Below, piece by piece: positions 7,402 through 27,720 of a DNA stretch of 49,845 bases. The notes under the pieces were generated by a model that worked only from the letters and a program-made list of their open reading frames with translations, was not told the origin of the DNA and searched no databases. Made by a program: the position numbers and the translations under genes. The stretch covers positions 1 through 49,845 of the forward strand of contig JACSDG010000015.1 in NCBI GenBank assembly GCA_015660855.1, written 5' to 3'. The first letter of the stretch is position 1. Every line of letters begins with the position of its first letter. The DNA is from Magnetococcales bacterium. GTDB taxonomy: Bacteria; Pseudomonadota; Magnetococcia; Magnetococcales; UBA8363.

Positions 7402-8660
7402 CCCCGCGTTTGACCCGTTCCCATGACAATATATTTCAAGGTGGTCAATCCTTCCAGTCCCACCGGACCGCGCACATGCAGCTTGTCGGTGGAAATACCC
7501 ATTTCCGCCCCCAAACCATATTCAAAACCATCGCTGAAACGGCTGGAGGCGTTCACCATGACCGAAGAGGAATCCACCTCCCGAATAAATTGCATGGCAC
7601 GCGCATGGTTTTGGGTCACAATGACATCGGTATGCTGGGAACCATGTTTTTCAATGTGGTCTATCGCCTCTTCCAGGCTGGCTACGACCCGTATGGCAAG
7701 GATGGCATCCAAATATTCGGTATCCCAATCCGCCTCGGTGGCCGGAATGCCGCCCAACGGGGCAAGGTGACGCAACGATTCGGGGCAACACCGCATGACA
7801 CAACCCGTCTCTTTGAGCTTTTGTCCGACCACGGGGAGAAAACTTGCCGCCATGGAGGCGTGGACCAGCAGGGTTTCGGTGGCGTTGCAGACTCCGGTTC
7901 GCTGCATTTTGCCATTGAGGGTCAAGGTCACGGCCATGTCAGGATGGGCATCCTGATCGATATAGGTATGGCAGATGCCATCAAGATGTTTGATCACCGG
8001 AATGCGAGATTCGGCAATGATGCGTTCAATCAGCCCTTTGCCGCCCCTGGGGATGATGACATCCACGTAGCGATCCATGGAGAGGAGTGCCCCCACGGCG
8101 GCACGGTCGGTGGTGTTGACAAATTGCACCGCATCCTGGGGAAGTTTGGCCTTTTCCAGCCCTTCGACCAATATCTGGACGATGGCGCGATTGGAATTCA
8201 ACGCCTCCGATCCGCCGCGCAGAATGACGGCGTTTCCCGACTTGACTGCCAGGGCGGCGGCATCGGCGGTGACGTTGGGGCGTGATTCGTAAATGATGCC
8301 GATCACCCCCAGGGGTACGCGCATGCGTCCGATCAACAAACCGTTGGGACGTGGTTTCATCCCGGTGATTTCTCCCACCGGATCTTCCAGGGCAACCACC
8401 TGGATAATTCCCTCGGCCATTCCTTTGATGCGGGCATCGGTCAGGTTCAAACGGTCGAGCATGGCCGCAGACAAACCTTTTTCTTGGCCCGCATGGAGAT
8501 CCTTGGCATTTTCCTGGCGCAAACTGGCCGCACCACGCAGCAAACCATCCGCCATGGCGGTCAGAGCCGCGTTTTTGGCGGCCCCCGATACCCGCGCCAA
8601 CTGTCGTGCTGCAGATCGCGCCCGTTGGCCAATCTGGGTCATTTCCCTAACCGGATCCAT
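7398..8660 (-). CDS. proA: Gamma-glutamyl phosphate reductase
   Basis: Second step of proline synthesis: NADPH-dependent reduction of gamma-glutamyl phosphate to the semialdehyde. 420 residues, the normal length. Aldehyde-dehydrogenase-fold features include [28 protein letters not shown] and the catalytic Cys segment [17 protein letters not shown] lies eight bases before the ATG. In the usual order proB would directly precede it, but here about 460 bp of repeat DNA separates the two genes, so proA may need its own promoter or depend on readthrough. Confidence 0.96.
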
Positions 8661-8714
8661 CGTGTTTCCTCCCGTTGCGGCCTGGGTTCATTGTGTTGCG
8701 TGGCCTGTTTGCAC

Positions 8715-8905
8715 AAGGTTGGTAACCATTCAGTCCCCCCCTCTTTTTTTAAGGTTGAAATTATTGCGGGGGTCCGGGGGGAGGTTCTCCCCCCGGCGGA
8801 GGTTTGGAGGCAGAGCCTCCAAGGTTTTTCTTTTGACTTTGATTTTGATTTTACTGCCCCCCAAGGGGGGTCTAGGGGCGCAGCCCCAGGGTTTTGATTA
8901 GGGTA
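8715..8905 (+). repeat. Full-length G-rich hairpin repeat, forward copy of the proB-proA pair
   Basis: Modules in order: left end GGTAACCATTCAGTCCCCCC (8717-8736); AAGGTTGAAATTATTGCGGGGG; hairpin CCGGGGGGAG-GTT-CTCCCCCCGG; hairpin TTGGAGGC-AGA-GCCTCCAA with a following GGTTTTT (terminator-like); a T-rich TTTTGACTTTGATTTTGATT stretch; palindrome CCCCCCAAGGGGGG; and a third hairpin GGGGC-GCA-GCCCC before AGGGTTTTGATT. The orientation is opposite to the flanking pro genes. Confidence 0.85.
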
Positions 8906-8914
8906 TAATATTCA

Positions 8915-9112
8915 TGATGCCCTTCAGGCAAGAACCAAAACCTTGGGGGCTTCGCCCCCAAACCCCCATAGACAATGAAGCTTTTTGTTTAAATTCAAAA
9001 ACAAAACCTTGGAGGCTCCGCCTCCAAACCTCCGCCGGGGGGGATGATCCCCCCCGGACCCCCGCAATAGTTTCAACCTTAAAGGAAAAGGGGGGGACTG
9101 AGCGGTTGCAAA
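8915..9112 (-). repeat. Full-length G-rich hairpin repeat, reverse copy of the proB-proA pair
   Basis: Inverted relative to the copy at 8715-8905, so the two form a long interrupted palindrome facing across about 10 bp with a TATAAT-like core (8902-8907). Read on the minus strand it starts 13 bp after the proB stop: GGGGG run, AACTATTGCGGGGGTCC, GGGGGGATCATCCCCCC hairpin, TTGGAGGC-GGA-GCCTCCAA hairpin (9009-9027), T-rich spacer, TTGGGGGC-GAA-GCCCCCAA hairpin (8943-8961) with GGTTTTGG, and the terminal TGCCTGAAGGGCATCATG. Confidence 0.85.
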
Positions 9113-9124
9113 GGTTGTCAACCA

Positions 9125-11603
<2,479 letters not shown>

Positions 11604-12835: not shown

Positions 12836-15103
12836 ATGGGTGTTGCCAATTTTTTTCGTGATCTGACCATTGTTAAAAAAATGGCCTTCGGTTTTGGCCT
12901 TGTGGGAATCCTGCTTTTGGGAGTCATCTGGAAATATCAAACCACCTTGAATCATACCGAGTCCAGCTATGGCAGGCTCCTTTCGGTGGAAGAAGCCTCG
13001 AAAAGTGCCGCCATGACCATTTCCGAGGCCATGTTACTGGCCCGTCGTGCCGAGAAGGATTTTTTGCTGCGCAAAGATCCGAAATATATCGCAAAAGTAG
13101 CCGAAATGGTACAAAAAGTCGAAGCCCAGGCTAGCCTTCTGTCCGACATCAGCCGGAAGGCGGATCTGCCAGGGCAGGCGACGGCTGCCCTGGATATGGC
13201 CGCCGCCATCAAGGACTACGGCGATGCTTTTGCCAACCTGGCAAAATCCATGGAACGCTCAGGGTTGACACCCGAGGCCGGTTTTGAGGGAGATTTCCGT
13301 AAAGCCGCCCACGGCCTGGAACAACGGCTCAGAGATTTCGATACCGATATGCTCATGGTCCAGTTACTCCAGGCTCGCCGGGCCGAAAAGGATTTCCGGT
13401 TGCGCGGCGATGATAAGTATGTCGCCAAATACGGGGAAATCATGGCTGCCGTCCGTTTGGAAATCGAGGTCTCCTTGCTGGCCGATACCACAAAAAACCA
13501 ACTTCGTGAAAGCTTGCTCCCCTACGAAAATGCCTTTGCCCGCACTGTAACCGAGCACCAGGCGAACGGATCGGCCAGTAAAGAAACGGCATCCGTACTG
13601 AGCGAAACAGCCCGCGCCGCAGAAAAAATTCTGGAAGAACACTATGTTGCTGATGCCTGGCGCAACTATCTGTTCGCCCGTCGTCACGAAAAGGATTACC
13701 TTCTCAGGGGGGATGCCCAGTACATTAAAAAACTTGCTGGTTCGATAAAGGAATTGCAGACGTCGGTCCAGGAGTCCAAAATTCCGGACAATGTCAAAGA
13801 GCAAGTCCAAAAAGATGTTGCCAGTTACCAAAAGGCCTTCACCTCGCTGGAACAGGAGAAAAGCCGTGTCAACGAACTGACTGAGGTTATGCGTGGTGCC
13901 GTTCACCGTATCGAGCCGCTGATTGAAAAAACGGCCCAGGATGCCGATACTTCCATGGTTGCCATAGTCCAGGTTACAGCCACGGAAATCCAGGAAGGCA
14001 AGCGAATTTCCCTGATTATGGCTGGCATTGCTTTCGTTGTGGGTATGTTCGTAGCCTGGTTGGTCAGCACGTCCATCAGTTCCAGCACCCAACGCATGGC
14101 GCGATTTGTCAGCCGTTTCGGCGAGGGCGATTTGACTTCGGTTTGCAGTATCTCCGGAAAGGACGAGTTTGGCCGCATGGGTCAAGCTCTCAATGCCGCC
14201 ACCAACCAACTTCGTAAAACTTTCGAGGAAATCAAAGCCTCTGCCCAGCAGGTTGCGGCTGGCAGTGCCGAGCTTTCCGATACCTCCCAGCAAATGGCCC
14301 AGAGGACTACAGAACAAGCGGCCTCCATTGAAGAAACCTCTGCGGCCATGGAGCAGATGAAATCTAGTATCCAGCAAAACACCGACAATTCACAAGCCAC
14401 CGAAATCATTTCCAAGAAGGCCGCCAAAGATGCCGAGGAGAGTGGCAAGGCGGTGGGTGAGGCGGTGAAAGCCATGAAGGAAATTGCTTCAAAAATTTCC
14501 ATTATCGAGGAAATTGCCCGTCAAACCAACCTTTTGGCCTTGAATGCCGCCATTGAAGCTGCACGGGCTGGGGAGCATGGCAAAGGTTTTGCCGTGGTTG
14601 CTGCGGAAGTACGCAAACTTGCCGAACGCAGCCAACATGCCGCCGGGGAAATTGGTCATTTGTCGGCGTCCAGTGTGGAAGTGGCTGAACGCACCGGGGC
14701 CATGCTGCAACAACTTGTACCCAACATCCAGAAAACGGCGGAACTGGTTCAGGAAATTTCCGCTGCCAGTCGCGAGCAAAACCAGGGAGTGACCCAAATC
14801 AACCAAGCTATTCAACAACTGGATGGAATCATTCAGAAAAGTGCTGGTGGTGCCGAGGAAATGGCGGCCACCTCCGAGGAACTTTCTTCCCAGGCTGAGA
14901 TTTTGACCCAGGCTATCAGTGCCTTCAAAACAGGCGAACCTGGGTTTTCCCAGGCAAGGGATGTCAAGAGGAAAGCCGCAGCCCAACCGTCCCGGAGTGT
15001 GGCATCGACTGTTACAAAAAAAACGGTGGCACGCGCCCTTCCTGCTCCCGGAGGCGTCAAAAAGACGTCGGAGACATCCGATGAGGAATTTGAAAGCTTT
15101 TGA
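12836..15103 (+). CDS. Methyl-accepting chemotaxis protein with an enlarged HBM-type sensor
   Basis: 755 residues from ATG 12836 (CTGGAG upstream; an earlier GTG adds 18 unneeded residues). Transmembrane helices lie at about 17-33 and 391-411. The 357-residue periplasmic part contains three copies of the helical-bimodular signature RR-x-EKD-x-x-LR (70-79, 181-190, 282-291); McpS-type HBM sensors have two. A HAMP-like segment and the signalling hairpin follow ([38 protein letters not shown]). The C-terminal DEEFESF fits the aromatic-x-x-aromatic tail used as a CheR/CheB tether. The ligand is unknown; HBM sensors of other bacteria bind organic acids. Confidence 0.9.
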
Positions 15104-15118
15104 TTTTACGACTTGGAA

Positions 15119-15238
15119 GGGTAATCATTCAGACCCCGTCATTCCCGCGAAAGCGGGAATCTAGGATTTGCGGGACTTCCCTGGATCCCCGCTTTCGCGG
15201 GGATGACGTTTGTTAAAGGGGGGGGTGAACGGTTACCT
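15119..15238. repeat. Facing GTCATTCCCGCGAAAGCGGGAATC palindromes in inverted flanks
   Basis: Left unit at 15138-15161; right unit (GGATCCCCGCTTTCGC plus GGGGATGAC, 15183-15207) is its near reverse complement, so the whole can form a large cruciform. The outer flanks are also inverted: GGGTAATCATTCAGACCCC (15119-15137) against GGGGGGTGAACGGTTACC (15219-15235). The outer flank matches the left end of the G-rich repeat family (8717, 40145, 47132), so two families appear nested. Confidence 0.75.
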
Positions 15239-15306
15239 TGGAAGGTTGGTGGGGGATCGGCAATTTCCCCCGCAATATCTTTAAGAAGGAAAAGAACCGG
15301 TACTGT

Positions 15307-16401
15307 TCATCCCGGCAACACCGGACCCGCATTGCCCCAGCAAAGCATGGCACCGCGTCCCGGAATGTCATAAAGATCAATCCGATCCAGTTGGGCAAGA
15401 CGGTCGGTCATGCCACTCCTGATCCAGTACAACAGACTTTTGAGGTCGGCATCGGCCATTCCTTGCACCTCGTTGAGATGGTTGTGATCCAGTTGGGCAT
15501 AGAGTGGATGAAACAATCTTTTGACATCACCATAGTCCACAGTCCATCCCATTACCGTGTTTAAAGGTGCCGACAGATGGAGGCGAAGGAGGTAGCTGTG
15601 ACCGTGGAGAACCTGGCGGGGATCGTTGGCCGGAGACCTTGCCAACCTTAGAGCGGCTTCAAAGCGTTGTTCTTTCCATATTCGATAGTGATGACCATCA
15701 AAATGACATCCGGCTGAAACTGTCTCGTAGACGCTGACCCAGGACAGTTCGGGAAGTTTTGGGCGCAAACGCTGCCAAATCCACGCGGAAAGCATCTCAC
15801 TGGTGGGATTTTCCAGTCCGGGAAGCTCGTTGAGGCAGCGATGGTGCAACAGGTCGTGGAATGGATTCCATACCTGTTGGAGATGATCAAAATCCACTCC
15901 CATGTCGCTATGCCGAAGATTTTGATGGGCATGCAGAATCACTTCAAATCCATGGCCATGCATTCGCCCGCAGGGGTGATCCTGGGCCACGTTGGGCAGG
16001 CGGTGAGCCGCCTCAAAACGAAAACGCCGCCAGATATGGGCATGATCCCGACCGTTAAGGTCGGCCCCCTGATCGCGTGTGCTCTGGATGCCGACAGATT
16101 CGAGTCCCGGAACATCCAGGTTTTTCCAAACCCAACGGGCTAGGTTTTCATCCGTGGGCGGCTCGATTCGATCATTGAGCAATGAATAGTCGAGAGCGGA
16201 AATTACAGTCTTCAATGCTTCGGCGAGTGTCTCGGCCTCGGCTCCAGGGAAAGGTTCCCAGTCGGGTGGCAATTCGGCCCTGATTCGGGCCATGAAACTG
16301 TGTCCATGGAGGTTGTGCGAACGGTGAGTCGCAGGCAGAATGGTGACTCTGCGGGCCGCTTCAAATGGGGCCGACGCCGTATGGTAAAGTTTTTCACTCA
16401 C
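15307..16401 (-). CDS. Three-domain 6-pyruvoyl-tetrahydropterin synthase/QueD-like protein
   Basis: 364 residues with three tandem PTPS-fold domains (about 1-115, 120-240, 245-360). The middle domain is a close QueD match with a complete site: FEAAHRLP (His133), CGR (Cys144), MHGHG (His148, His150), LLHHRCLNE and YETVSAGC (Glu226). It should bind zinc and make 6-carboxytetrahydropterin for queuosine-type pathways. Domain 1 keeps only LHGHS and has EAARR, no Cys, and no Glu at the catalytic place. Domain 3 keeps LHGHS and LDHNHLNE but has EAALR and no Cys. The outer domains are probably structural, since the enzyme is normally oligomeric. No other queuosine genes are near. Start at ATG 16401. 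Confidence 0.85.
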   Translation of the reverse strand: MSEKLYHTASAPFEAARRVTILPATHRSHNLHGHSFMARIRAELPPDWEPFPGAEAETLAEALKTVISALDYSLLNDRIEPPTDENLARWVWKNLDVPGLESVGIQSTRDQGADLNGRDHAHIWRRFRFEAAHRLPNVAQDHPCGRMHGHGFEVILHAHQNLRHSDMGVDFDHLQQVWNPFHDLLHHRCLNELPGLENPTSEMLSAWIWQRLRPKLPELSWVSVYETVSAGCHFDGHHYRIWKEQRFEAALRLARSPANDPRQVLHGHSYLLRLHLSAPLNTVMGWTVDYGDVKRLFHPLYAQLDHNHLNEVQGMADADLKSLLYWIRSGMTDRLAQLDRIDLYDIPGRGAMLCWGNAGPVLPG

Positions 16402-16449
16402 TTAAAAATCCTTCAACTCCGCAACTTAACAGGCCAAGGGTTCATGTAT

Positions 16450-16582
16450 CGGGAAAATAAAGTTTGGCAAAAATTATTGCGGGGGTCCGGGGGGGATCAT
16501 CCTCCCCGGCGGAGGTTTGGAGGCGGAGCCTCCAAGGTTTTGGTTTTGACTTTATGCCAAAGGGGCATCATGTCCTGAAAAA
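16450..16582 (+). repeat. G-rich hairpin repeat copy, alternative left end
   Basis: Begins ATCGGGAAAATAAAGTTTGG, then AATTATTGCGGGGGTCC, a GGGGGG-ATCATC-CTCCCC hairpin, TTGGAGGC-GGA-GCCTCCAA followed by GGTTTTGG, and ends TGCCAAAGGGGCATCATGTC. It fills the moaA-queD gap in reverse orientation to both genes. The left end differs from the GGTAACC type at 8715. Confidence 0.8.
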
Positions 16583-16583
16583 A

Positions 16584-17582
16584 TTAACCTCCCAATCCCG
16601 ACATGGCATGGTTTGGATTTTTATTTTCTTCGTGATGAAACTGGTGTCCCTGAGGTTTTTTTTGCACCGCATGGAGGATCAATTCTCGCAATTGATCGTT
16701 GCTGGCTCCCGAGCGCATGGGATCTTTCAAATCCATACGGCCAGAGTTGCCCAGACAAAAGACCAACTCTCCTCGCGACGTTAAACGCATACGATTGCAT
16801 TTTTCGCAAAAGTTACGGGATTTTGCCGATATGATTCCCACTGTCGTTCCGCTTGGGGTGTGGCAAAAATAATTGGCCGGGCCGTTGCCAACCAAATCGG
16901 TTCCCGTCGTCCATACCGAATCACCACCCATTCCTGCTTGTACCCTGGTCAGAATCTCTGCGGCGGGCATGTAACTGGCATCCATCTGCATACCCGCCTT
17001 GCCGATGGGCATGGTCTCGATAAAGCGCAAAATCAGGCCGTTTTCTTTGGCAAAGGCCACCATGGCGGGAATTTCCGTATCGTTGACGCCCCCCATCACC
17101 ACCATATTGACTTTGACGGGATGCAATCCGGCGGCGACAGCCGCACGTATCCCCCGTAAAACCACCTCCAACTGGCCACCACGGGTGATTTTGGCGAACG
17201 TTTCAGGATTCAACGAATCCAGGGAAATGTTGACCCGCCTGACTCCGGCTTGTTGCAACTCGTTGGCATAACGTTCCAAAAGTACCGCATTGGTGGAAAG
17301 AGAAACTTCCCGCAGGTGCGGGTTTGCCGTCAATTTTTCAATCAGGTTGACAAGGTGTCGGCGCAGCAAAGGTTCACCACCGGTGAGACGTATTTTTTCA
17401 ATTCCAAGCACGGAAAAAATTTCAATCAGTCGCGCCAGTTCTTCCAGCGAGAGCAGTTCATGATTTTCAACGGATATCCGTTCATCGCCCACACGGCAGT
17501 AAAGACACTTCAGATTACACCGGTCGGTTACCGAGACACGGAGATACGAAATGGTTCTGCCAAATGAATCTATAAGAGACAT
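16584..17582 (-). CDS. moaA: GTP 3',8-cyclase, first step of molybdenum cofactor synthesis
   Basis: Radical-SAM enzyme converting GTP to 3',8-cyclo-7,8-dihydro-GTP. 332 residues. The N-terminal cluster motif is CNLKCLYC (Cys22, 26, 29), with LTGGEPLLR following. The C-terminal cluster cysteines lie in FCEKCNRMRLTSRGELVFC. The conserved C-terminal Gly-Gly (MSGLGG) is present. It is the last gene of the moaEB-moeA-moaC-hemerythrin-moaA series. The ATG has only a weak GGGA upstream. Confidence 0.96.
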   Translation of the reverse strand: MSLIDSFGRTISYLRVSVTDRCNLKCLYCRVGDERISVENHELLSLEELARLIEIFSVLGIEKIRLTGGEPLLRRHLVNLIEKLTANPHLREVSLSTNAVLLERYANELQQAGVRRVNISLDSLNPETFAKITRGGQLEVVLRGIRAAVAAGLHPVKVNMVVMGGVNDTEIPAMVAFAKENGLILRFIETMPIGKAGMQMDASYMPAAEILTRVQAGMGGDSVWTTGTDLVGNGPANYFCHTPSGTTVGIISAKSRNFCEKCNRMRLTSRGELVFCLGNSGRMDLKDPMRSGASNDQLRELILHAVQKKPQGHQFHHEENKNPNHAMSGLGG

Positions 17583-17631
17583 GATGTATCCCAGGTGGAC
17601 GGCCTTGAACCCAATAGTTTTCCTTTGTGGA

Positions 17632-18075
17632 TCAGTTCAGGTCCAAAGCCTCAAGCAAAGGAAAAAGTTCGTTTTCTTCACGATCAATACGCCAAAGCAA
17701 TTGGTCTGCGATCTTGTGACTGTCTGCCACAAAAGCATCCCAATGACCAATCAGTTCCTGCTCTGACTGCCATCTGTGAATATACTCGGAAAACTCAAAC
17801 CCCAATCCCCCCATTTCCTTTGTGAACAGCGAGGCTGTTTTCCTGATTTCGGGATGTCTGTCCGTTAGCAATCCGGGATAGAGCAACTGATCTTCCTGAG
17901 TCAGGTGCAGAAGGACTCTTTGATCCAACACTTTTAATAGTTCACGCACCTTTTGCAGACACTTCAGGCTGAATGGTCTGTTAAGTTGCTCCCTCAGTTT
18001 GATCAGATCACGCAGAATTTCAGAATGTTGGACTTTTAATAGTTCCGAAACGATAGGAATGATTTTTTTTTCCAT
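17632..18075 (-). CDS. Hemerythrin-like (HHE cation-binding) protein
   Basis: 147 residues, all helical in character. The spaced ligands QHSEI (near 16), HLTQEDQLLYP (near 57), a central H, and EENELFP near the C-terminus follow the HHE di-iron pattern (H...HxxxE...H...ExxxxP). Such proteins bind oxygen, NO or iron. AAAGGA lies just before the ATG. It sits between moaC and moaA with short gaps, so it is probably in the molybdenum cofactor operon. Protecting or sensing for the oxygen-labile MoaA clusters is a reasonable guess, not shown by the sequence. Confidence 0.8.
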   Translation of the reverse strand: MEKKIIPIVSELLKVQHSEILRDLIKLREQLNRPFSLKCLQKVRELLKVLDQRVLLHLTQEDQLLYPGLLTDRHPEIRKTASLFTKEMGGLGFEFSEYIHRWQSEQELIGHWDAFVADSHKIADQLLWRIDREENELFPLLEALDLN

Positions 18076-18104
18076 AATTCCTTTGGAACGAATTCCCTCC
18101 CCGA

Positions 18105-18155
18105 ATTTTGTTTTTCCGATACACGGACATGACGCCCTGCGGAAAAAAAAACATC
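18105..18155 (-). repeat. Remnant of the repeat's right end next to its alternative left end
   Basis: Read on the minus strand: TTTTTTTTTCCGCAGGGCGT-CATGTCC, then GTGTATCGGAAAAACAAAATTC. The first part matches the TGCCCGAAGGGCAT-ATGTCC tail, the second the TATCGGAAAATAAAG left end. The central hairpins are missing. Confidence 0.45.
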
Positions 18156-18171
18156 GTCGTTCAAGGGAATG

Positions 18172-18672
18172 TCATTGAGAGTCAGGGGCTGAACGCAAAA
18201 AGTGTCCGCTTCGCCCTCCCGATTTTTCCAGCAGACCGATCCCCTCGATCGACATTTCTCTGTCTATCGCTTTGCACATGTCATAAATGGTCAGACCCGT
18301 TATCGCTACCGCCGTCAATGCTTCCATTTCGACCCCTGTGGGACCATGGCAGCGCACACGGGCAACGATCTTGACGATGCCTTCATCCGGGATTGGCTCA
18401 AAAGAAATATCCACCGAGGAAAGGTTCAGGGAATGGCACAGGGGGATCAGGTCGTCTACCCGCTTGGCGGCCATGATACCTGCAAGCCGAGCGACTTCCA
18501 ATACATCGCCTTTGGCCATTTTCCGGTCCAGAATTAATTTCAGGGTTTCCTTGCGCATGCGTACTCGTCCCCCAGCCACAGCCAGGCGGCTTGTGGATGG
18601 TTTTTCCGTCACATCCACCATGCAGGACGCCCCGTTGGCATCGAAGTGGGTCAACCCTCCAGCATTAGTCAT
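18172..18672 (-). CDS. moaC: Cyclic pyranopterin monophosphate synthase
   Basis: Rearranges the MoaA product into cyclic pyranopterin monophosphate. 166 residues. Features: LTHFDANGASCMVDVTEK, KGDVLEVARLAGIMAAKR, IPLCHSL, GVEMEALTAV and YDMCKAIDRE, containing the conserved active-site lysines and histidine. The start overlaps the moeA stop by 8 bp, giving coupled translation. Confidence 0.96.
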   Translation of the reverse strand: MTNAGGLTHFDANGASCMVDVTEKPSTSRLAVAGGRVRMRKETLKLILDRKMAKGDVLEVARLAGIMAAKRVDDLIPLCHSLNLSSVDISFEPIPDEGIVKIVARVRCHGPTGVEMEALTAVAITGLTIYDMCKAIDREMSIEGIGLLEKSGGRSGHFLRSAPDSQ

Positions 18673-19900
18673 CGTCGATCATCCATACGGTTACTCGATC
18701 TGCGGAGGTGATGGTTACCGGACCTTCGGGGATAACGATCAAGGCGTTGGCGGCAGACAGGCTGGTCAAAATGCCCGAGCCTTGCGGGCCGGTCGTTTCG
18801 ACATTCACGCCATCGACAGTAAAACGAACGATAGCGCGTAAAAATTCTTTTCGCGAATGTTTTTTGGAAAAATGTCCCTTGAAGGTGGCTTGGAACATTT
18901 TTTTTGGCCACGTTCCGCCGCCCATGAGGCGAAAAAGGGCCGGACGGATCAACAGGTAGAACACTGTCAGCCCCGAAACGGGATTGCCGGGAAGCCCAAA
19001 AAAGGCGGCCCGGCCCAGCCGACCGTAGGCCTGTGGTTTTCCCGGTTTCATGGCGACTTTCCAAAAATTGACGTTGCCTTTGTTTTCCAGTGCCAGGCGT
19101 ACCAGGTCATAGTCACCCACGGAAACACCGCCGGTACTGATGATGGCGTCAGCTGTGTGGGAGGCACGTTCCAGGGCTGTTTCGATGGTGGCCAGATGAT
19201 CCCCGACAATCCCAAAATCCATGACCTCACAACCCATGGCGCGCAAAGCCGCCTTGAGTCCGGCACGATTGCTGTCATAGACCTGTCCGGGACGAATGGG
19301 GCTGGCAATTTCTACCACTTCGTTGCCGGTGGAAAGAACCGCAACCCGTATGCGCCGGAATACCCGGCCCTGGGAAATTCCCTGGGCTGCCAGGACACCG
19401 ACATCGGCGGGCCGCAGACGCCTGCCGGTCGCAAAAATTTTGTCACCCACCTTCATGTCCTCACCCGCACTGCGAACATGTTCCCCTGGTTTGCAACCGC
19501 AGGGGACGGTAACCCAATCCTGGTTTCGGCGGCAGATCTCTTGGATCACCACCGCATCGGCCCCTGGGGGGATTGGCGCACCCGTCATGATGCGAACGGC
19601 TTCGCCCTGATTCAAGATTGAAGAATGGTATCCACCGGCGGCGAGGTCGGACACCACCCGCAATCGTACTTCTCCCGTCCCCGCCAGATCGACGCTACGC
19701 ACCGCATAGCCGTCCATGGCCGAATTGTCATGGTTGGGTACGTTCATTCCGGCTGTCACATCGCCTGCCAGCACTCGGCCCGGCAGGTGTTCCAGGTCTA
19801 CAACTTCCGTCTCTGTCACCGCCACCATGCCGGCAAGAATTTTTTCTCCGGCTTCTTCGAAGGAAAGCATCGTCTCCATGCCTGCCAGTTTGTCAACCAT
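18665..19900 (-). CDS. moeA: Molybdopterin molybdenumtransferase MoeA
   Basis: Inserts molybdate into adenylylated molybdopterin. 411 residues from ATG 19900, chosen for the AGGAGG five to ten bases upstream; a reading from 19930 adds ten residues inside the previous gene. Motifs include NHDNSAMDGYA, GAPIPPGADAVV, GEHVRSAGEDMK, STGGVSVGDYDLV and FGLPGNPVSG. It overlaps the moaE-moaB fusion by 8 bp at its start and moaC by 8 bp at its end. Confidence 0.95.
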   Translation of the reverse strand: MVDKLAGMETMLSFEEAGEKILAGMVAVTETEVVDLEHLPGRVLAGDVTAGMNVPNHDNSAMDGYAVRSVDLAGTGEVRLRVVSDLAAGGYHSSILNQGEAVRIMTGAPIPPGADAVVIQEICRRNQDWVTVPCGCKPGEHVRSAGEDMKVGDKIFATGRRLRPADVGVLAAQGISQGRVFRRIRVAVLSTGNEVVEIASPIRPGQVYDSNRAGLKAALRAMGCEVMDFGIVGDHLATIETALERASHTADAIISTGGVSVGDYDLVRLALENKGNVNFWKVAMKPGKPQAYGRLGRAAFFGLPGNPVSGLTVFYLLIRPALFRLMGGGTWPKKMFQATFKGHFSKKHSRKEFLRAIVRFTVDGVNVETTGPQGSGILTSLSAANALIVIPEGPVTITSADRVTVWMIDDD

Positions 19901-20954
19901 GTCCTCCTCCTTTGGCCATTGACAAGGCATGGGGGACCAGATCGGCCACCACCCCCAGGCTGTGCAACGCCCCTCGTGTCGAGCCGGGTAAATTGATGAT
20001 CAGGGTTTCACCGCGAAACGCTGCAATACCCCGGGTCAACAACGCCGATCGTACCTGGCGCAAGCCTTCCCTGCGAATCGTCTCGGCAAACCCCGGCATT
20101 TCCCGTTGCGTAACCGTGCGGGTCGCTTCCGGGGTGACATCGCGTGGACCCGGACCCGTCCCCCCCGTGGTCAGAATGACATCGATTTTTTCCGCGTCGG
20201 ACCAGGATACCAGGAGACGCTCGATTTCCTCCCTTTCATCACGGATGACCCAGCGGACAACCCTTTTGACCCCGTAACCCCGAATTGTTTTTTCCAGACC
20301 ATCACCACTCTTGTCCGTGGCCAGATTTCGCGTATCCGAGAGGGTCAGTATACCCACCGACAACCCCGTCCAATCGGCCCTCTGTGTTGGTTGCTCTTCG
20401 GGCGAACGGTCAGGTTGGTGTCCATGTTCGTGTTGCGGGGAATGCTTTTCTTTGTGACAATGATCATCGGTGCGATGCGGCACCGACGCGAAATCCTGCC
20501 AGTGGGTTGCTGCGGCTATGCACCCGGGACAGGAATGGACCCAGCGTTGCGTTCCGGAGGCTAGGATTTCCTTTTTCCAGAACGTGGCAAATATTTTCAA
20601 ATGATCGATGACATGGCGACAGGCATCGAAAGCGGTCGCACGGTGGGCGGCGGCGGCGATGACCAGCACAATATTTTCTTCCAGGTTCAGACGCCCCACC
20701 CTGTGAACTACCAGCAAGGCCTCAAGGTCGAAGCGTTGACGGGCCTGAACTTCAATTTTTTCCAGTTGTCCCTCGGTCATGCCCGGATAGTGTTCCAGAC
20801 TCATCGCCACAACCGACTCATCCTGGGTCTGATCCTGGGCCAGATCGCGAACGGTCCCCACAAAGGCGACCACCCCCCCCACGCGATGCAATCCCCGGGT
20901 GAGGCGTGTCATTTCTTCCTGAATGGAAAAATCTTCCCGTTGTATGCGAATCAT
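19893..20954 (-). CDS. Fusion of molybdopterin synthase large subunit (MoaE) and MoaB/MogA
   Basis: 353 residues. Residues 1-145 are MoaE (GGVVAFVGTVRD, LEHYPGM, HRVGRL, the catalytic-lysine segment FWKKE at 126-129 and a MoaE-type TQRWVH). Residues 198-345 are the MoaB/MogA molybdopterin adenylyltransferase fold (GILTLSDTR, TTGGTGPGPRDVTPEA, NLPGS). The two are joined by a linker (about 141-192) with SCPGC and eight histidines between 151 and 179. One chain would thus sulfurate the pterin and adenylylate molybdopterin. No MoaD is visible in this window, although MoaE needs it. The His/Cys linker might hold a metal; this is inference. Confidence 0.88.
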   Translation of the reverse strand: MIRIQREDFSIQEEMTRLTRGLHRVGGVVAFVGTVRDLAQDQTQDESVVAMSLEHYPGMTEGQLEKIEVQARQRFDLEALLVVHRVGRLNLEENIVLVIAAAAHRATAFDACRHVIDHLKIFATFWKKEILASGTQRWVHSCPGCIAAATHWQDFASVPHRTDDHCHKEKHSPQHEHGHQPDRSPEEQPTQRADWTGLSVGILTLSDTRNLATDKSGDGLEKTIRGYGVKRVVRWVIRDEREEIERLLVSWSDAEKIDVILTTGGTGPGPRDVTPEATRTVTQREMPGFAETIRREGLRQVRSALLTRGIAAFRGETLIINLPGSTRGALHSLGVVADLVPHALSMAKGGGHG

Positions 20955-21062
20955 GTTTCACCGTCCCGATCCAACGTTGTCGCCTGGTTGGTCAAAATTA
21001 TTTCGTCACCCTGGTTATTAGGAAAGGGTTATAGGAAAGTATCGATTGTCCGTTCCTACGCT

Positions 21063-23654
21063 ATGGTTTATCATGGATCCTTCTCGCTGCTCAATGCCGA
21101 CCCGTGGCGTTGCTGTCGAAGTCACCTGGAAAACCAAAGCTTCAAGTTGCCCTGGATCGCCGTGATTCATTTTTTTTCCAACCGCTGGTTCCTCATTTCC
21201 ATTCTGACGGCAGCTTTCTTACTGGCTGACGGGGCCGCCTTGCTGCGTCCTCTGGAGATGGTGACCTACGATTGGGGCGTGCAGATGTCTCAGCATCCCG
21301 GCGATAAACGAATTGTTGCGATTGTCGTCGATGACAAATCACTGGCTGCCTTGGGAAGTTGGCCGTGGGATGGGAGACACGAACTTCAACTTATTCGCAC
21401 ACTGGTTCACGGCAACCCGAAGCTGATTGTGGATACGCGTGTGGCCACGTTCAAGAGGGACAAACCCTCTCTGGAAATCCTCTCCCAGGCCAGGAAAAAG
21501 CTGGAAAGTATCCGCTATCGAACCCAGACCCATGCGGCCTCCGAGAATCCCGGTTTTATCAAGTCCATGTCCGAACTGGAAGAGATTCTGACCGATGGTG
21601 TGAAACAATTGGGCGTGACCAGGGAGTATGTCAAAATCATGGGTTTGGCTGGAAACATGATTTTCGCCATGGAGGGGGTTGATTTTCAATACGGTCAGGC
21701 TCCGGCCCCCGAATTATCCGGGGAAATTGTTAAACACGCCATCCAACCCGCCGCATCCTCGATGGTTGGTTTGCCCGAAATCGCTATCATCCAGACGCCA
21801 CCTTTGGAGATTGCCAGTCAATCGTTGGCCCTGGGGGTTACCATCGTTGCGCCAGTCCATGCCCACAGCACCACGCGCACAACCCATCTTGGGTATCGGG
21901 TTTCCGGTAAGCTTTTTCCATCGTTGGCACTCATCACCGCAGCGAGAAGTCTTAATATTCCGTCGTCCGAACTGCGTTTTGTCGCCAATAAACCCTTTAC
22001 CCTGGGACAATGGGCGGTTCCCCATGATCAGAACTTTGCCATTCTGACCAGTTTTTATCACGGTAATGGATCGCAAAGCCCTTTTTCCACCTTTTCTTTT
22101 GTCGACGTGTTGGAGAACAAAATACCGGCGACTGCGTTTCGCAATCAGATCGTCCTCATTGGTTTGACAGCCTCCGGTCTGGTTGCCAAGCATGATACGC
22201 CGCTCAATCAAACCTTGGCACCCGTTGAAATGCTGGCCCATGAGGTTGCCACCATCCTCAACCAGGATGCTTATGTCCAGCCATCGTGGACCCCCAAGGC
22301 CAAGATGGCCTTGTATTTGGGCGTGGGGCTGTTTTTAATGCTTATCCTTTCCTGGCTGCCGCGTGCCATAGGCATGATCCTGGGCTTGGGGATGGCGTCG
22401 GCTTTGGTTGCGGGTCAAATGTACATGATGATCCAATATACCCTTTGGATTCCTGCGACAGGTTCGTCTGTCCTGCTTTTAACGGGAACTTTTGTTCTGG
22501 CGTTCATGACCAGCGGGAAGCGACGTCGGCGTGTTTTTCCCTATTCCGAAGTTGATAGCAGCAACCGCATGCTGGGATTGGCCCTCCAGGGACAGGGACG
22601 ACTGGACCTAGCTTTTGAGCGGTTTCGCCGGTGTCGGGCTGACGATGTGACCCTGAATCTTCTTTACGATCTGGGTTTGGAGTTCGAGAAGCGTCGTTGC
22701 TTTGAGGATGCCATGGGTATTTTTGCCTACATCGAGCAAAAACAGCCCGGCTTTCGGGACTGCGGAAAAAAAATGGAATTGGACCGGATTGCGGTGGCGG
22801 GGCAGACAGATTCACAAAAGTTGGGACATTTACCATCCATGTACCAGGAAAGTGTGGCACTCTTGGAGCGTTACCGACTCGAAGGAGAACTTGGCAGGGG
22901 GTTGTTTGGAACCGTATGGCATGGTTACGACGACGCCAAACATCGGGAAGTCGCCGTCAAGATCATTCCTCTTCAGGAACGATCTATGGACGAAAAATCG
23001 TTTCTCCTGGCCAAATCCATTTTTAATCGCATGGCCGATCAATACGCGATTTTACGCCATCCGAACATCATCCGGGTAGAGGAATCACAGGTTCTTGAAG
23101 GCAAGGGGGTTCTGGTCATGGAAATTCATGCTGGCCACAGTATCGAACAGTATACCTCGCACCAAAAACGGTTACCTTTGCCGTGGGTCATCCAGGTGAT
23201 CGCCAAAATGGCTATGGCTTTGGACCATGCCCATCGGCTTAAAATTTTTCACGGTGGACTTAAACCCGGGAATGTCCTTTTCAATGAATATTCTCATGAA
23301 ATTAAACTAACCGGATTCGGCCAGGTCATGCTCCTGGAGGTGCTTCCCTTTCCCGAAGGCAACCATCCGTGGCAAAGGGTCATGGTGCACATGGCCCCGG
23401 AACAGATCAAGGGCGAACTGCCGACACGTAGGAGCGATATTTATGCACTGGGAAGGATTTTTTTCCAACTGGTGACCGGCTCTCCGCCACCTGTGGAACC
23501 TGTTTCTGGTAAAGAGTTTTCTGCGGAGATTCCGGAATGCTTGCGGCGTATCATCCAAAAATGTTTGGAACCTCGGCCGGAAAAACGTTTTGCCAACTGT
23601 ATCGATTTGGCCAGAGATTTGGTGGGCTGCGTGAAATCACAGGTGTCCACGTGA
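21063..23654 (+). CDS. CHASE2 receptor with TPR and a degenerate Ser/Thr kinase domain (predicted pseudokinase)
   Basis: 863 residues from ATG 21063; earlier in-frame codons lie opposite moaE. One N-terminal helix (about 41-60) leads to an extracytoplasmic CHASE2 domain (about 65-405), then three membrane helices, two TPR-like repeats (about 500-570) and a kinase fold from about 605. The Gly-rich loop (GELGRGLFG), VAVK (Lys633), MAPE and SDIYALG are intact. However, the HRD motif reads HGG (730-732) and DFG reads GFG (751-753), so both catalytic aspartates are absent while Asn in KPGN remains. It probably binds nucleotide or partners without phosphotransfer. It converges on the PP2C gene with 21 bp between the two genes. 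There is no clear Shine-Dalgarno. Confidence 0.83.
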   Translation: MVYHGSFSLLNADPWRCCRSHLENQSFKLPWIAVIHFFSNRWFLISILTAAFLLADGAALLRPLEMVTYDWGVQMSQHPGDKRIVAIVVDDKSLAALGSWPWDGRHELQLIRTLVHGNPKLIVDTRVATFKRDKPSLEILSQARKKLESIRYRTQTHAASENPGFIKSMSELEEILTDGVKQLGVTREYVKIMGLAGNMIFAMEGVDFQYGQAPAPELSGEIVKHAIQPAASSMVGLPEIAIIQTPPLEIASQSLALGVTIVAPVHAHSTTRTTHLGYRVSGKLFPSLALITAARSLNIPSSELRFVANKPFTLGQWAVPHDQNFAILTSFYHGNGSQSPFSTFSFVDVLENKIPATAFRNQIVLIGLTASGLVAKHDTPLNQTLAPVEMLAHEVATILNQDAYVQPSWTPKAKMALYLGVGLFLMLILSWLPRAIGMILGLGMASALVAGQMYMMIQYTLWIPATGSSVLLLTGTFVLAFMTSGKRRRRVFPYSEVDSSNRMLGLALQGQGRLDLAFERFRRCRADDVTLNLLYDLGLEFEKRRCFEDAMGIFAYIEQKQPGFRDCGKKMELDRIAVAGQTDSQKLGHLPSMYQESVALLERYRLEGELGRGLFGTVWHGYDDAKHREVAVKIIPLQERSMDEKSFLLAKSIFNRMADQYAILRHPNIIRVEESQVLEGKGVLVMEIHAGHSIEQYTSHQKRLPLPWVIQVIAKMAMALDHAHRLKIFHGGLKPGNVLFNEYSHEIKLTGFGQVMLLEVLPFPEGNHPWQRVMVHMAPEQIKGELPTRRSDIYALGRIFFQLVTGSPPPVEPVSGKEFSAEIPECLRRIIQKCLEPRPEKRFANCIDLARDLVGCVKSQVST

Positions 23655-23675
23655 CCCCTATTTCTCCGGCCACGA

Positions 23676-24812
23676 TCAAATTCTTACCTCAACCAGGGTG
23701 ATGTCATCGTCCTGGGTATCGGAGCCGGTATAGGCTTCGAGTCGTTTGAGGAGATTTTCCAGGGGGGCACCGCTGGCGGCGAGGTCGGTTAAAAATTTTT
23801 CCAGCCGTTCTACACCGAACATGTCATTGTGGAGTCCCCTGGCTTCGGTAATGCCATCGGAATAGAGATACAGGCGGTCATCCTTTTCCAGGTCCAGGGT
23901 TGCCTGGGCTTCTCCCATGTCCAGCGACATGGTGACGCCCAGGGGGGGGAGCATGGATGGAAAACGATTCACAATCTGGCCTTGTCGCAGCAACAAAGCT
24001 TCAGGGATCGCAGCATTCCATATCTTTGCCTGGTGTCGTTGTGCCGATATTTCTAGCAACAGTGCCGCAAAAAAGAGTCCTGTAGGCAGGCGGGAGAAAA
24101 GTTGACTGTTGATCTGTTCAAGAATGGCCAAACCGGGGGATTCCATGCGGGCCTGTTCGTGCAGGATGTAGGTGACCAGGGGTCCACCGATGGCGGCCGG
24201 CAGTCCGTGACCGGTAAAGTCACCCAGCAGGACCAACTGTCGCCCTTCGGGGGTGAAGGTGGACAGGAGCATGTCGCCTGCCGTTTGTTCAACGGGGGCG
24301 ATGATGTGACGCAAATAACGCTCATCCAAAACATCGGCACCACGCATCTTGGTGATGATGTTTTCGATCAATTCGCGTTCGTACAGCAAATTTTGATTGT
24401 TTTTTTTCAGGGTGCGGGTGGCAAATCGAAGTTCCAGATGGGTTTTGATGCGTGCCTGGACAATGGGGATGCTGAAAGGTTTGGTGATGTAATCCACCGC
24501 GCCAAGTTTCAACCCCATGATTTCATCGGCTTCTTCTGCTTTGGCGGTAACGAAGATTACCGGAATGTCACAGGTCAGTTTGTTCTGTTTGAGCCTGTTA
24601 CAAACCTCATACCCATCCATGCCGGGCATCATGATATCCAACAGCACCAGGTCGGGGTGGGGAGGGACCATGGCGGCTTTCAAGGCAATCTGGCCGTTGG
24701 GGGCGGGGCGAACCGTATAATCGTCGATCAATGCCCCTTTCAGGACATCGATGTTTTCAGGAGTGTCATCCACCACCAGAATGATGGGACGCCTCCCCTT
24801 GTCGCGGAACAT
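23676..24812 (-). CDS. Response regulator with a PP2C/SpoIIE-type (RsbU) phosphatase output
   Basis: 378 residues from ATG 24812; upstream in-frame sequence is non-conserved and runs into the divergent gene. The receiver domain (8-125) has DD15-16, phospho-acceptor Asp59 (LVLLDIMMPGMDG), Thr89 and Lys111 (TKPF). A short coiled linker (about 130-155) leads to the phosphatase, with AGDM (Asp180), LLGDFTGHGLPA (Asp198), LYLYSDGITEA and a closing DDDITLVEVR. All metal-binding acidic motifs appear intact. Known relatives dephosphorylate anti-anti-sigma proteins. No STAS or anti-sigma gene is visible here, so the target is unknown. Confidence 0.9.
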   Translation of the reverse strand: MFRDKGRRPIILVVDDTPENIDVLKGALIDDYTVRPAPNGQIALKAAMVPPHPDLVLLDIMMPGMDGYEVCNRLKQNKLTCDIPVIFVTAKAEEADEIMGLKLGAVDYITKPFSIPIVQARIKTHLELRFATRTLKKNNQNLLYERELIENIITKMRGADVLDERYLRHIIAPVEQTAGDMLLSTFTPEGRQLVLLGDFTGHGLPAAIGGPLVTYILHEQARMESPGLAILEQINSQLFSRLPTGLFFAALLLEISAQRHQAKIWNAAIPEALLLRQGQIVNRFPSMLPPLGVTMSLDMGEAQATLDLEKDDRLYLYSDGITEARGLHNDMFGVERLEKFLTDLAASGAPLENLLKRLEAYTGSDTQDDDITLVEVRI

Positions 24813-25014
24813 AGTGTGTTTCCCATCTTGACGAATGACAAGTTTTCCTTGCCTGGCAAAAACCTTTCCACAATGATTTTGTTCCAACCACATTGGAAAA
24901 GGTCCGGTGACTGTATCGGATATCAATACCCTTGCGCAATCCATGCCAATGGCAGCCGGGGTCAAGGGACGATGTCGGTCCGGGGGCATTCGGCAACGTA
25001 TCAAAGGTCGTTTT

Positions 25015-25068
25015 TGGTTTTTTGATTTTGTTTTGACTTTTTTTTGCGCGAAAGGCACCATGCCCTCC
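25015..25068 (+). repeat. Right-end remnant of the G-rich repeat, overlapping a gene start
   Basis: TTTTGATTTTGTTTTGACTT, a T-run, GCGCGAAAGGCACCATGCCC resembles the T-rich spacer and TGCCCGAAGGGCATNATGTCC tail of full copies. It seems to supply the leader, and possibly the start codon, of the next gene. Confidence 0.5.
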
Positions 25069-26127
25069 ATGACTCTTTCTGCGGATGAATTATCTCAGGC
25101 CATAGCCTGCCTGAAAAAGAACCCTCCTGAAGTTTCTCAGGCGCTGGCTGTTCTTGAAGGCCAAGCGATGTCCATGGGATGGATAGACAAGGCCAGGGAT
25201 GCCGTGACTGGTCTGCTTGGGCGCATGAATCAGACCCTGGTGACCATGGATGGGATTGACCGACGCGTGCGTCGGTTGGGAGAGGAGATAGACCAAAATC
25301 CTTCACCTGCGCAGTTGCTCGACATAAAAACCATGTTGTTGCATGAGGTTGGTCATTTTACAAAAGCGGGCGATGTTTTGACCCTGGAGATAAAAAAACA
25401 TGAACATGGTTTAAAACAGGCTTGTAACACAGGCTTGCCTGTTTTGGAAACTTGTGCCAGCGAGTCTGCCCATGTGGGTGTTTTGGTTGATGCCTCCTTA
25501 ATCGGTCCCGGTTCCCCTGAACCGGCGATCATCGACCCGGATCAGCTCCGGAGTGACGTGTCTTCTTCGCAAGCTGACATAAGCGCATACTCTCTTTCCT
25601 CCGCCGAAGCTTTGCCGGGAGAGTTGTCGGGATTGTCACCTTTGTGTCAAAAGTTTGCCCAGTGTGGTTTTGCCCATCCGAAACAGTTTGAAGCTCAGGT
25701 TTCCTCTGGTATGACCACTGGACAGCCCTCGGCTCTGATTGTTATTCAGATGGCGAACATCCAAAAGCTTGTTGCACGCACCTCATCCAATACCGTCGAA
25801 AGGTTGGCGGATCACATCAAGGGAAGGCTTAAGCTTGAGGCGAAAAATAAGGATGTATTTGGGCTGTTGGATGATGAACATATCGGGTTATTTTTGTGTA
25901 ACATCCTGCCTCCGGTAGCCACGGCACTGGCGCGGCGTATTGCGGCGCAACTGGCGGTCAAGGTTAAGGGACAGGATGGCCAGGCACATACGCTGGAGAT
26001 TCGGACCTCAGTGCAAATTTTGAAAAAAGACGACGACAGCCAATCTTTATTGAGTCGGGGCTTGGCGTCCGTCCAAACGGGACAAAACAAAAAAACCGGT
26101 GTTTTGACGGGGCGGGCCAACCGATAG
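25060..26127 (+). CDS. Protein with a degenerate GGDEF-like C-terminal domain
   Basis: 355 residues from ATG 25060 (AAAGG five bases upstream; ATG 25069 is equally possible). The N-terminal part (to about 125) is helical and polar; residues 130-205 are low in structure. From about 215 the order of segments (ALIVIQMANIQKLV, VERLADHIKGRL, VFGLLDDEHIGLFL, ALARRIAAQL, IRTSVQIL) follows the GGDEF domain, but the signature loop reads LLDDEH instead of GGDEF and no RxxD site is evident. It would not be expected to make c-di-GMP. I infer the fold from pattern only. It lies beside the pseudokinase and phosphatase genes. Confidence 0.55.
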   Translation: MPSMTLSADELSQAIACLKKNPPEVSQALAVLEGQAMSMGWIDKARDAVTGLLGRMNQTLVTMDGIDRRVRRLGEEIDQNPSPAQLLDIKTMLLHEVGHFTKAGDVLTLEIKKHEHGLKQACNTGLPVLETCASESAHVGVLVDASLIGPGSPEPAIIDPDQLRSDVSSSQADISAYSLSSAEALPGELSGLSPLCQKFAQCGFAHPKQFEAQVSSGMTTGQPSALIVIQMANIQKLVARTSSNTVERLADHIKGRLKLEAKNKDVFGLLDDEHIGLFLCNILPPVATALARRIAAQLAVKVKGQDGQAHTLEIRTSVQILKKDDDSQSLLSRGLASVQTGQNKKTGVLTGRANR

Positions 26128-26134
26128 CGGACCC

Positions 26135-26152
26135 GTGGACCATACTGTCCAC
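26135..26152. repeat. Small inverted repeat between convergent genes
   Basis: GTGGAC-CATACT-GTCCAC, eight bases after the stop of the GGDEF-like gene and close to the end of the opposite gene. There is no T-run, so it is a weak terminator candidate. The following AGGGCATCATG matches the repeat-family tail. Confidence 0.4.
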
Positions 26153-26158
26153 AGGGCA

Positions 26159-26944
26159 TCATGTTTTCTTTGATGCGAAATATTCTTCCACTCTGGTTAT
26201 TGTTGTGGCAATTTCCGTCGCGTAGGTTGCGTTGCTTTCCAACTTTAATTGCGCGATTTTTTTTGGGATCCTCTCCCGAATTCCTTCCAGTAGGCTGGGA
26301 TGAACATATTCAACTTTGGCCGTCATTTGATCATCAAAACGGGTTGCCAAAAGCCCGGTTGCGGTCATGGCCAGGATCCACCCTTGAAAATAAAATTCCG
26401 AGCCTGGGGGCAACGCCATGGATTGGCACAAATCGGCCAAATCCAGGCTTTTTTTAGCCCCAAAAGCCAGTACTGCCGCGTACAATAGCACCAACCCCAT
26501 AGGCGCACTGGTATCAAGCACGCGCATGGGCAATTCGCTCTGATCGGTGCCTGTTTGGTCATGCCTGCCCCCTTCCGATTCTGAGCCTTGCAATAGCGTC
26601 AGGGAGTGCATTTCGCTACTTAGACGTTGGGATTCTTCGCGGATAAGCTTTGACAGGGTATCAAATTCTCTGGCGACATCAGGCCGGACATCCATTCGAT
26701 GGGCACTTTCCTGGATTTGGTTTGAAATCCGTTCGACGTCCTTGAGCATGGTAGGAATGGTTGTGTTGCTTAAAAATACGTAAACGATCGATAAAATGGA
26801 GATAGCCAAGGCGGAAATGATCATGGCATAGGTCAAGCGTCGGAGAAAATCAATATCGCCGAAGTCAATAGTCACAATAGCACCAAAGCAAGTCAGTGCG
26901 ATAACTATCAGATAGGTGATGTGAATTGTGGAGGGTGTTTTCAA
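26159..26944 (-). CDS. Unknown membrane protein with four predicted helices and a coiled coil
   Basis: 261 residues from a TTG start (GGAG six bases upstream). Hydrophobic helices lie at about 10-27, 38-59, 146-163 and 186-202. Between the pairs, residues 66-117 look like a coiled coil (VERISNQIQESAHR, FDTLSKLIREESQRLSSE). The C-terminal 60 residues are helical and charged. I do not recognise a family. The layout resembles a membrane scaffold or sensor without an output domain. It converges on the GGDEF-like gene and sits at the edge of the signalling patch, so a link to signalling is possible but unproven. Confidence 0.6.
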   Translation of the reverse strand: MKTPSTIHITYLIVIALTCFGAIVTIDFGDIDFLRRLTYAMIISALAISILSIVYVFLSNTTIPTMLKDVERISNQIQESAHRMDVRPDVAREFDTLSKLIREESQRLSSEMHSLTLLQGSESEGGRHDQTGTDQSELPMRVLDTSAPMGLVLLYAAVLAFGAKKSLDLADLCQSMALPPGSEFYFQGWILAMTATGLLATRFDDQMTAKVEYVHPSLLEGIRERIPKKIAQLKLESNATYATEIATTITRVEEYFASKKT

Positions 26945-26997
26945 GAATATCTCCGTTGTTCAAGGTCACTTAAAATAATGGAATCATGGGGGTGAAT

Positions 26998-27720
26998 TCA
27001 AGATCGTTGGTAGGCCAAGTGTAAAATGGGGCGACCGGCGGATTCTCCTTTTTGTTGGAAGCGGGTCGGTTGCCAAAGATCGGGTTCGGGGGCGGGTTGG
27101 CGGGGACCGTGGGGGTTGGTGAATGCGGGGTGGACCTCCAGGTGGTCCTGCATCCAGACGCCATAGTCGGGCCAGTCGGTGGCCAAGGTCAACAAACCAC
27201 CCGGGGTCATGGCGGTGGCGAGGCGGTCCAAAAAATCGGTTTGGATCAAACGGCGTTTGTGATGGCGTTTTTTCGGCCAGGGATCGGGAAAATTGATCAT
27301 CACCCGGTCCAACAGAGCCTCAATTTTTCTGGTTTCCAATATTTCCAGGGCATGGCCCGCCTCTACCGCCACATTGTGCAGGTTCATCCGTTCGATCCGG
27401 CGCAGCAAGGCGGAAAAACCTTCCATGAAAACATCAATGCCGATCAAACGGTCTTGGGGATGGTGCAGAGCCATGTGGGTGAGGGTATCCCCATTGCCGA
27501 AGCCAATCTCCAGCCACAAGCGGGCGGTTCCGGGATCGGCTTGCCATCGGGTCAGGGTTTCGTGGCGTGTGGTTGCCCATGGGGGAGACAGTTCCTGCAA
27601 CCGTTGCGGCAGCCAGTCGGTTTCTCCGCGCTTGAGAATGCCTTTTTTGCGTCCATGCACCTTGAAACGGCTACGCTGGATCCAGGCATCTTTGGCGGTA
27701 TCGTCGGTCATGGATGTCAC
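26998..27720 (-). CDS. trmB: tRNA (guanine-46-N7)-methyltransferase
   Basis: Makes m7G46 in the tRNA variable loop. 240 residues. Features: WLEIGFGNGDTL (SAM site), IGIDVFMEG, INFPDPWPKKRHHKRRL (family signature), LATDWPDY and the C-terminal TRFQQKGESAGRPI. I keep the GTG at 27720 because AAGGAG sits six bases upstream; ATG 27711 is the alternative. It follows the aldo/keto reductase by 20 bp, so the two may share a transcript. Confidence 0.95.
   Translation of the reverse strand: MTSMTDDTAKDAWIQRSRFKVHGRKKGILKRGETDWLPQRLQELSPPWATTRHETLTRWQADPGTARLWLEIGFGNGDTLTHMALHHPQDRLIGIDVFMEGFSALLRRIERMNLHNVAVEAGHALEILETRKIEALLDRVMINFPDPWPKKRHHKRRLIQTDFLDRLATAMTPGGLLTLATDWPDYGVWMQDHLEVHPAFTNPHGPRQPAPEPDLWQPTRFQQKGESAGRPILHLAYQRS

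Follow-up and report, generated by a model that had tools for sequence, protein, structure and literature searches.

To our knowledge, pseudokinases of bacteria have received little study, and the steps that lead from an enzyme to a non-enzyme are documented in few cases. O'Boyle et al. 2025 described seven conserved Hanks-type families, ActPs1-3, GLW, DLHK, CP1 and DYD, and the definition used there is the loss of at least one of the beta3 Lys, the HRD Asp and the DFG Asp (PMC12599244). ActPs1 members often lack helix G, the HRD Asp is Asn in ActPs2, and one P. aeruginosa DLHK member reads GFG; EssB/YukC, a membrane-spanning pseudokinase of the T7SSb, serves in binding or as a scaffold (PMC12599244). 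The human pseudokinase VRK3, in which a DFG-type Asp is replaced by Gly, has a well preserved fold and is described as binding and activating the phosphatase VHR (PMC2639636). CHASE2 is mentioned 0 times in PMC12599244, and a literature search of partial coverage found no paper on CHASE2 pseudokinases or CHASE2 serine threonine kinases. The proteobacterial CHASE2–TM–TPR Ser/Thr kinases of Beta- and Gammaproteobacteria, usually encoded upstream of PP2C and FHA genes, keep the catalytic set K/E/HRD/K/N/DFG; in a separate scan of named genomes it was complete in 73/73 homologues outside the degraded clade described below.

The window, the whole stretch of 49,845 nucleotides analysed here, carries on its forward strand a gene called at 21063..23654 (863 aa, P0001; the true start probably lies downstream), whose product joins CHASE2, transmembrane (TM) segments, a TPR-like linker and a kinase domain in a single chain. 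The CHASE2 sensor domain (21210..22337, residues 50-425) was recognised by Pfam PF05226 at E 4e-30, and hydropathy places a first TM at residues ~42-62 and C-terminal TM segments at 22293..22511 (residues ~411-483). Between the membrane and the kinase domain sits a TPR-like helical hairpin (22584..22811, residues 508-583), kept in intact and degraded members. The kinase domain itself (22872..23615, residues 604-851) matches Pkinase PF00069 at E 1.7e-29, well above the cut-off, and the AF2 model of the region (pLDDT 89.3) superposes on PknA (4ow8) with Z 29.0 and rmsd 2.5 over 250 aligned residues, as expected of a protein kinase fold. A chance motif in a non-kinase protein is ruled out by the Pfam match and the fold. 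Active PknA, PknB and StkP stood at the top of the ranking in PDB searches, and no pseudokinase was prominent among the matches listed.

Within this domain HRD is replaced by HGG (23250..23258, residues 730-732; codons CAC GGT GGA), with loss of the catalytic Asp at 732, and DFG by GFG (23313..23321, residues 751-753), with loss of the Mg-binding Asp at 751; the codons at 23310-23321 are ACC GGA TTC GGC. Intact are the Gly-rich loop GRGLFGTV (22893..22916, G611xG613xxG616), the beta3 Lys K633 of VAVK (22959..22961), K734, N737, P779-E780 and D792. An earlier note on this DNA had read the two altered motifs beside an intact Gly-rich loop, VAVK lysine and APE region, and translation and codons bear this out, as regards the last for its PE. 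It had overlooked three further losses: M657 replaces the alphaC Glu (23031..23033), the GT of the P+1 stretch GTPxYMSPE is gone, and helix alphaG is deleted after residue 816 (23508..23511), which removes ~15-20 residues relative to intact orthologues. In the AF2 model of the window protein alphaF (282-298, model numbering) leads to alphaH (318-327) with no alphaG between, whereas alphaG is present at 313-322 in the model built for L099, an intact orthologue. The losses in the P+1 loop and alphaG affect the substrate side too.

By the definition given above the protein is a pseudokinase that has lost both Asp. It shares domain order, TPR-like linker motif and ~28-35% identity near full length with the proteobacterial CHASE2 kinases, but the positions 657, 732 and 751 of their catalytic set are replaced and their usual neighbours are missing. 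It differs from the seven bacterial families in retaining the beta3 Lys (f1 and f9), in lacking both Asp (f1) and in its N-terminal CHASE2 domain with TM segments. GLW members have GLW in place of HRD and Leu or Trp in place of the beta3 Lys, as against HGG and VAVK; DLHK members keep the HRD Asp and have no transmembrane region, while here the Asp is lost and TM segments are present; and in ActPs1, ActPs2 and ActPs3 the beta3 Lys kept here as K633 is lost or replaced (PMC12599244). These distinctions from GLW, DLHK and ActPs were drawn from described motif and topology features. EssB/YukC, a likeness as a bacterial transmembrane pseudokinase, differs in the degradation of its Gly-loop as well as of all three motifs, and in its architecture and system. 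VRK3 resembles the window protein in its Asp to Gly exchange and preserved fold; its Gly-loop is degraded and its Lys–Glu ion pair kept, whereas the window protein has an intact Gly-loop but no such Glu, and a phosphatase partner finds no support.

In one genome scan, relatives were recovered with an alignment query, a single-protein query having returned none. The five full-length orthologues of the same genus, 48-58% identical to the window protein, read HGN/GFG, HGR/GFS, HGR/GFS, HGG/GFC and HGN/GFA at the HRD and DFG positions. Both Asp are therefore missing in all six full-length genus members, window included, and it is this loss, not the exact letters HGG/GFG, that is conserved; a local sequencing error is ruled out, the five relatives lacking both Asp as well. 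The earlier note had held that close homologues with intact HRD/DFG would tell against its reading; none was found within the genus, and intact orthologues occur only in other families of the order. Its prediction that the same HGG/GFG pair would recur next to RR-PP2C genes failed among the relatives. All same-genus relatives with named records are metagenome-assembled genomes, and kinship suggests that the window derives from an uncultivated magnetotactic coccus lineage; DCbin4, DCbin2 and HA3dbin1 belong to one family-level freshwater clade (PMC6783814).

Degradation takes other forms elsewhere in the order. Three f9 proteins read HGN/DFA and one HGD/NFA; in the related clade f7 the Gly-loop and the beta3 Lys are both lost (Lys to Arg), Asn replaces the HRD Asp, and the DFG position reads DFG or EFG. 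Where intact kinases have the alphaC Glu, every full-length genus member has Met, f9 has Ile and f7 has Asp. Kinases of f10, f11, f13 and f14, all of the same order, are intact, as are 23/23 rows elsewhere in the phylum. In a maximum-likelihood tree computed with the diagnostic columns removed, 16 degraded Magnetococcales orthologues from three families formed one clade with 100/100 support, nested among intact orthologues, with the Beta- and Gammaproteobacterial CHASE2 kinases as an intact outgroup; the f7 sequences had long branches and an odd composition. Even so, 16/16 degraded orthologues have Gly for the HRD Arg and lack the alphaC Glu, which supports a single origin of the degraded clade followed by differing later losses. 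Related f7 kinases in g17 genomes (L073-L077) have short frames of 384-596 aa, and some read HAD or DFS/DFC, perhaps a further drift.

The dead domain nevertheless remains under selection. For the least saturated pair in the genus (L010/L011, dS ~0.5), dN/dS rose from 0.10 in the kinase domain (90% identity) through 0.16 for the TM/TPR part to 0.20 for CHASE2 (80% identity); dS was saturated in many other pairs. The kinase domain of the intact pair L033/L034 gave 0.02. On these estimates the dead kinase domain is relaxed compared with a working kinase, yet no other part of the protein is as constrained. In f7 the constraint is weaker, since its two unsaturated pairs gave kinase-domain dN/dS of 0.46 and 0.21.

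Upstream, and divergent from the kinase, lies a molybdenum-cofactor (Moco) cluster (16584..20954, minus strand) with a MoaE–MoCF fusion, MoeA, MoaC, a hemerythrin-like protein and MoaA, MoaA and MoaC being named from sequence. In 15 relatives (f1, f9, f13, f14 and three f7) the kinase is divergent from MoaE–MoCF, MoeA, MoaC and MoaA or, in one of the 15 (G024), close to them; a search with every window ORF found nothing outside this kinase–Moco block common to the relatives, even within the genus. No Moco linkage was found for f10, f11 and loci outside the order in the stretches read, and several f7 orthologues are unlinked too. An Rfam scan of 15000-27000 gave no Moco riboswitch and no other match. 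In the fusion gene (19893-20954, minus strand) MoaE is joined to a MoCF domain of Mog/MoaB type, and the fused query matched, mostly at full length, in 42/48 genomes of the order and 27/27 of high quality, including complete genomes without the kinase. The hemerythrin-like (HHE) gene (17632-18075, minus strand) separates moaC from moaA in most of the genus and also in one genome of f9.

Beyond the order, an intact kinase gene typically opens a run of genes that includes PP2C_2, FHA and, often, a CHASE2 cyclase. Among loci with enough flank, a same-strand PP2C (PF13672) lies directly downstream in 81/91 intact loci against 0/13 degraded ones, and an FHA gene is present in 70/91 against 0/13; the arrangement is usual but not universal, PP2C being missing at some intact loci too (f13, f11 and a few others). 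This correlation is effectively one historical event and not a statistical law, because the degraded loci belong to one clade. An intermediate exists in L063 (f14, 7304-10767), an intact CHASE2 kinase linked to Moa genes with a PP2C 63 bp downstream. Tree and synteny together suggest an order of events in which the kinase would have arrived at the Moa locus, the phosphatase and the reader would then have been lost from the locus, and catalysis would have been lost last.

The start of the gene also appears to need correction. A promoter-like block, TTGTCC–17–TATCAT (21044..21074, plus strand), is common to five same-genus relatives and reads GATTGTCC...(A/T)TGGTTTATCAT; it overlaps the ATG at 21063, which falls within GATTGTCCGTTCCTACGCTATGGTTTATCAT. 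The block is out of the kinase frame in 5/5 same-genus relatives, and the ATG is TTG in two. A scan for -35/-10 sites, which gave 4 where 2.3 were expected, is weak alone, and it is conservation that carries the argument. Since the ATG lies inside a conserved, out-of-frame block, the true start is probably the TTG at 21147..21149, which aligns with the starts of the relatives. This correction leaves the pseudokinase finding untouched.

We favour, at a probability of about 0.74, a conserved Hanks-type pseudokinase receptor with a non-catalytic output. The periplasmic CHASE2 domain would detect a signal, the TM helices and the conserved TPR-like juxtamembrane hairpin would relay it to the folded kinase domain, and this domain, no longer transferring phosphate, would act through its conformation or by binding, on a partner whose gene lies elsewhere. 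The absence of catalysis, the signal input and the binding output are what we infer from these data: because the catalytic residues were lost long ago and selection keeps the domain, signalling probably proceeds through partner binding and not through phosphate. Candidate partners may lie among other kinases of the cell, for the genome holds ten Pkinase matches; in the nine besides the window protein the Asp at the HRD position is present, in most of them DFG as well, and these kinases apparently work. Elsewhere the genome encodes one PP2C_2, six FHA and three other CHASE2 proteins. A further kinase in the genome, at G000 C63:16874-17662 (L002, L175), retains HRD but has NFC at the DFG position (LLNFCLV), as likewise in L080 of the same-genus relative G001 (LINFCLI); these NFC kinases possibly form a second, partly degraded kinase family.

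The earlier note had proposed a transmembrane pseudokinase that perhaps acts through the neighbouring phosphatase. Domains, TM segments and the conserved loss uphold the pseudokinase; the phosphatase part is rejected by synteny. That idea has its closest parallel in VRK3, for which activation of a phosphatase is reported, and the genes do lie 21 bp apart in the window. The response regulator–SpoIIE phosphatase gene (23676..25070, minus strand), however, is convergent with the kinase, tail-to-tail and so not co-transcribed, and is adjacent to it in this genome only; in 7/7 same-genus genomes its homologue (73-78% identity) is carried on a different contig. Direct reading of the downstream kinase flanks in the fragmented assemblies G002, G005, G006 and G007 found no RR-SpoIIE gene, and RR-SpoIIE belongs to a different family from the PP2C_2 proteins beside intact relatives. 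We therefore judged this gene to be outside the system; its position is most simply read as a local accident, and regulation of this phosphatase by the pseudokinase is very improbable. Ten RR–SpoIIE or response-regulator matches occur in the genome at E below 1e-40, which indicates many paralogues. Equally hard to credit is a decaying gene heading for loss: branches are longer after the loss, dN/dS is about five times that of the intact pair and the gene is absent from several families, but full-length frames stay open at dN/dS ~0.1, and fold residues and the promoter-like block are conserved across the genus.

Two special cases of the receptor reading, and one departure from it, turn on what the domain still does. 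The genus retains the Gly-loop, K633, N737 and, at 734, a basic residue, so that the domain could conceivably bind nucleotide or carry out an unusual reaction. A pseudokinase that still binds a nucleotide, ATP or other, but carries out no Mg-dependent transfer, with occupancy setting the conformation, is a tentative proposal: the loop GxGxFGTV, K633 and N737 are invariant in six full-length genus members, but K633 has lost its alphaC Glu partner and f7 is maintained without Gly-loop and Lys, so nucleotide binding would not be a clade-wide need. That the protein is still an enzyme with unconventional chemistry, as with SelO (AMPylation), is decidedly doubtful, even though ATP-pocket residues are partly retained, precedents are reviewed in PMC12599244, and PMC13030254 reports VRK3 to be active by way of an extra-catalytic domain. 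The two acidic residues of catalysis are both missing, and the HRD-Asp (G/N/R) and DFG-Gly (G/S/C/A) positions vary freely within the genus, a pattern that speaks against a new, conserved active site at these positions. The neighbouring cofactor genes raise the further, unlikely case of a receptor that senses a periplasmic condition tied to molybdoenzymes (e.g. nitrate respiration) and tunes cofactor supply or the divergent operon. The divergent pairing is kept in f1, f9, f13, f14 and part of f7, with nothing shared beyond either end of the block; linkage is all that speaks for it, however, f10, f11 and several f7 orthologues are unlinked, the Rfam scan was empty, and MoaE–MoCF also occurs without the kinase.

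Returning to the conserved pseudokinase receptor, a more far-reaching and rather speculative picture would be a new order-level CHASE2 pseudokinase family that joined the Moco genes as an active kinase with PP2C, lost phosphatase, FHA and catalysis, and would now control, non-catalytically, cofactor supply or molybdoenzyme respiration in magnetotactic cocci. The wider value of the locus is that one orthologous gene can be traced from a kinase with a downstream phosphatase, by way of a kinase still intact beside the Moco genes, to three lineages that are degraded in different ways and yet maintained. This series therefore makes it testable which parts of a kinase are needed after catalysis is lost, and how a CHASE2 receptor may serve its role without phosphorylation.
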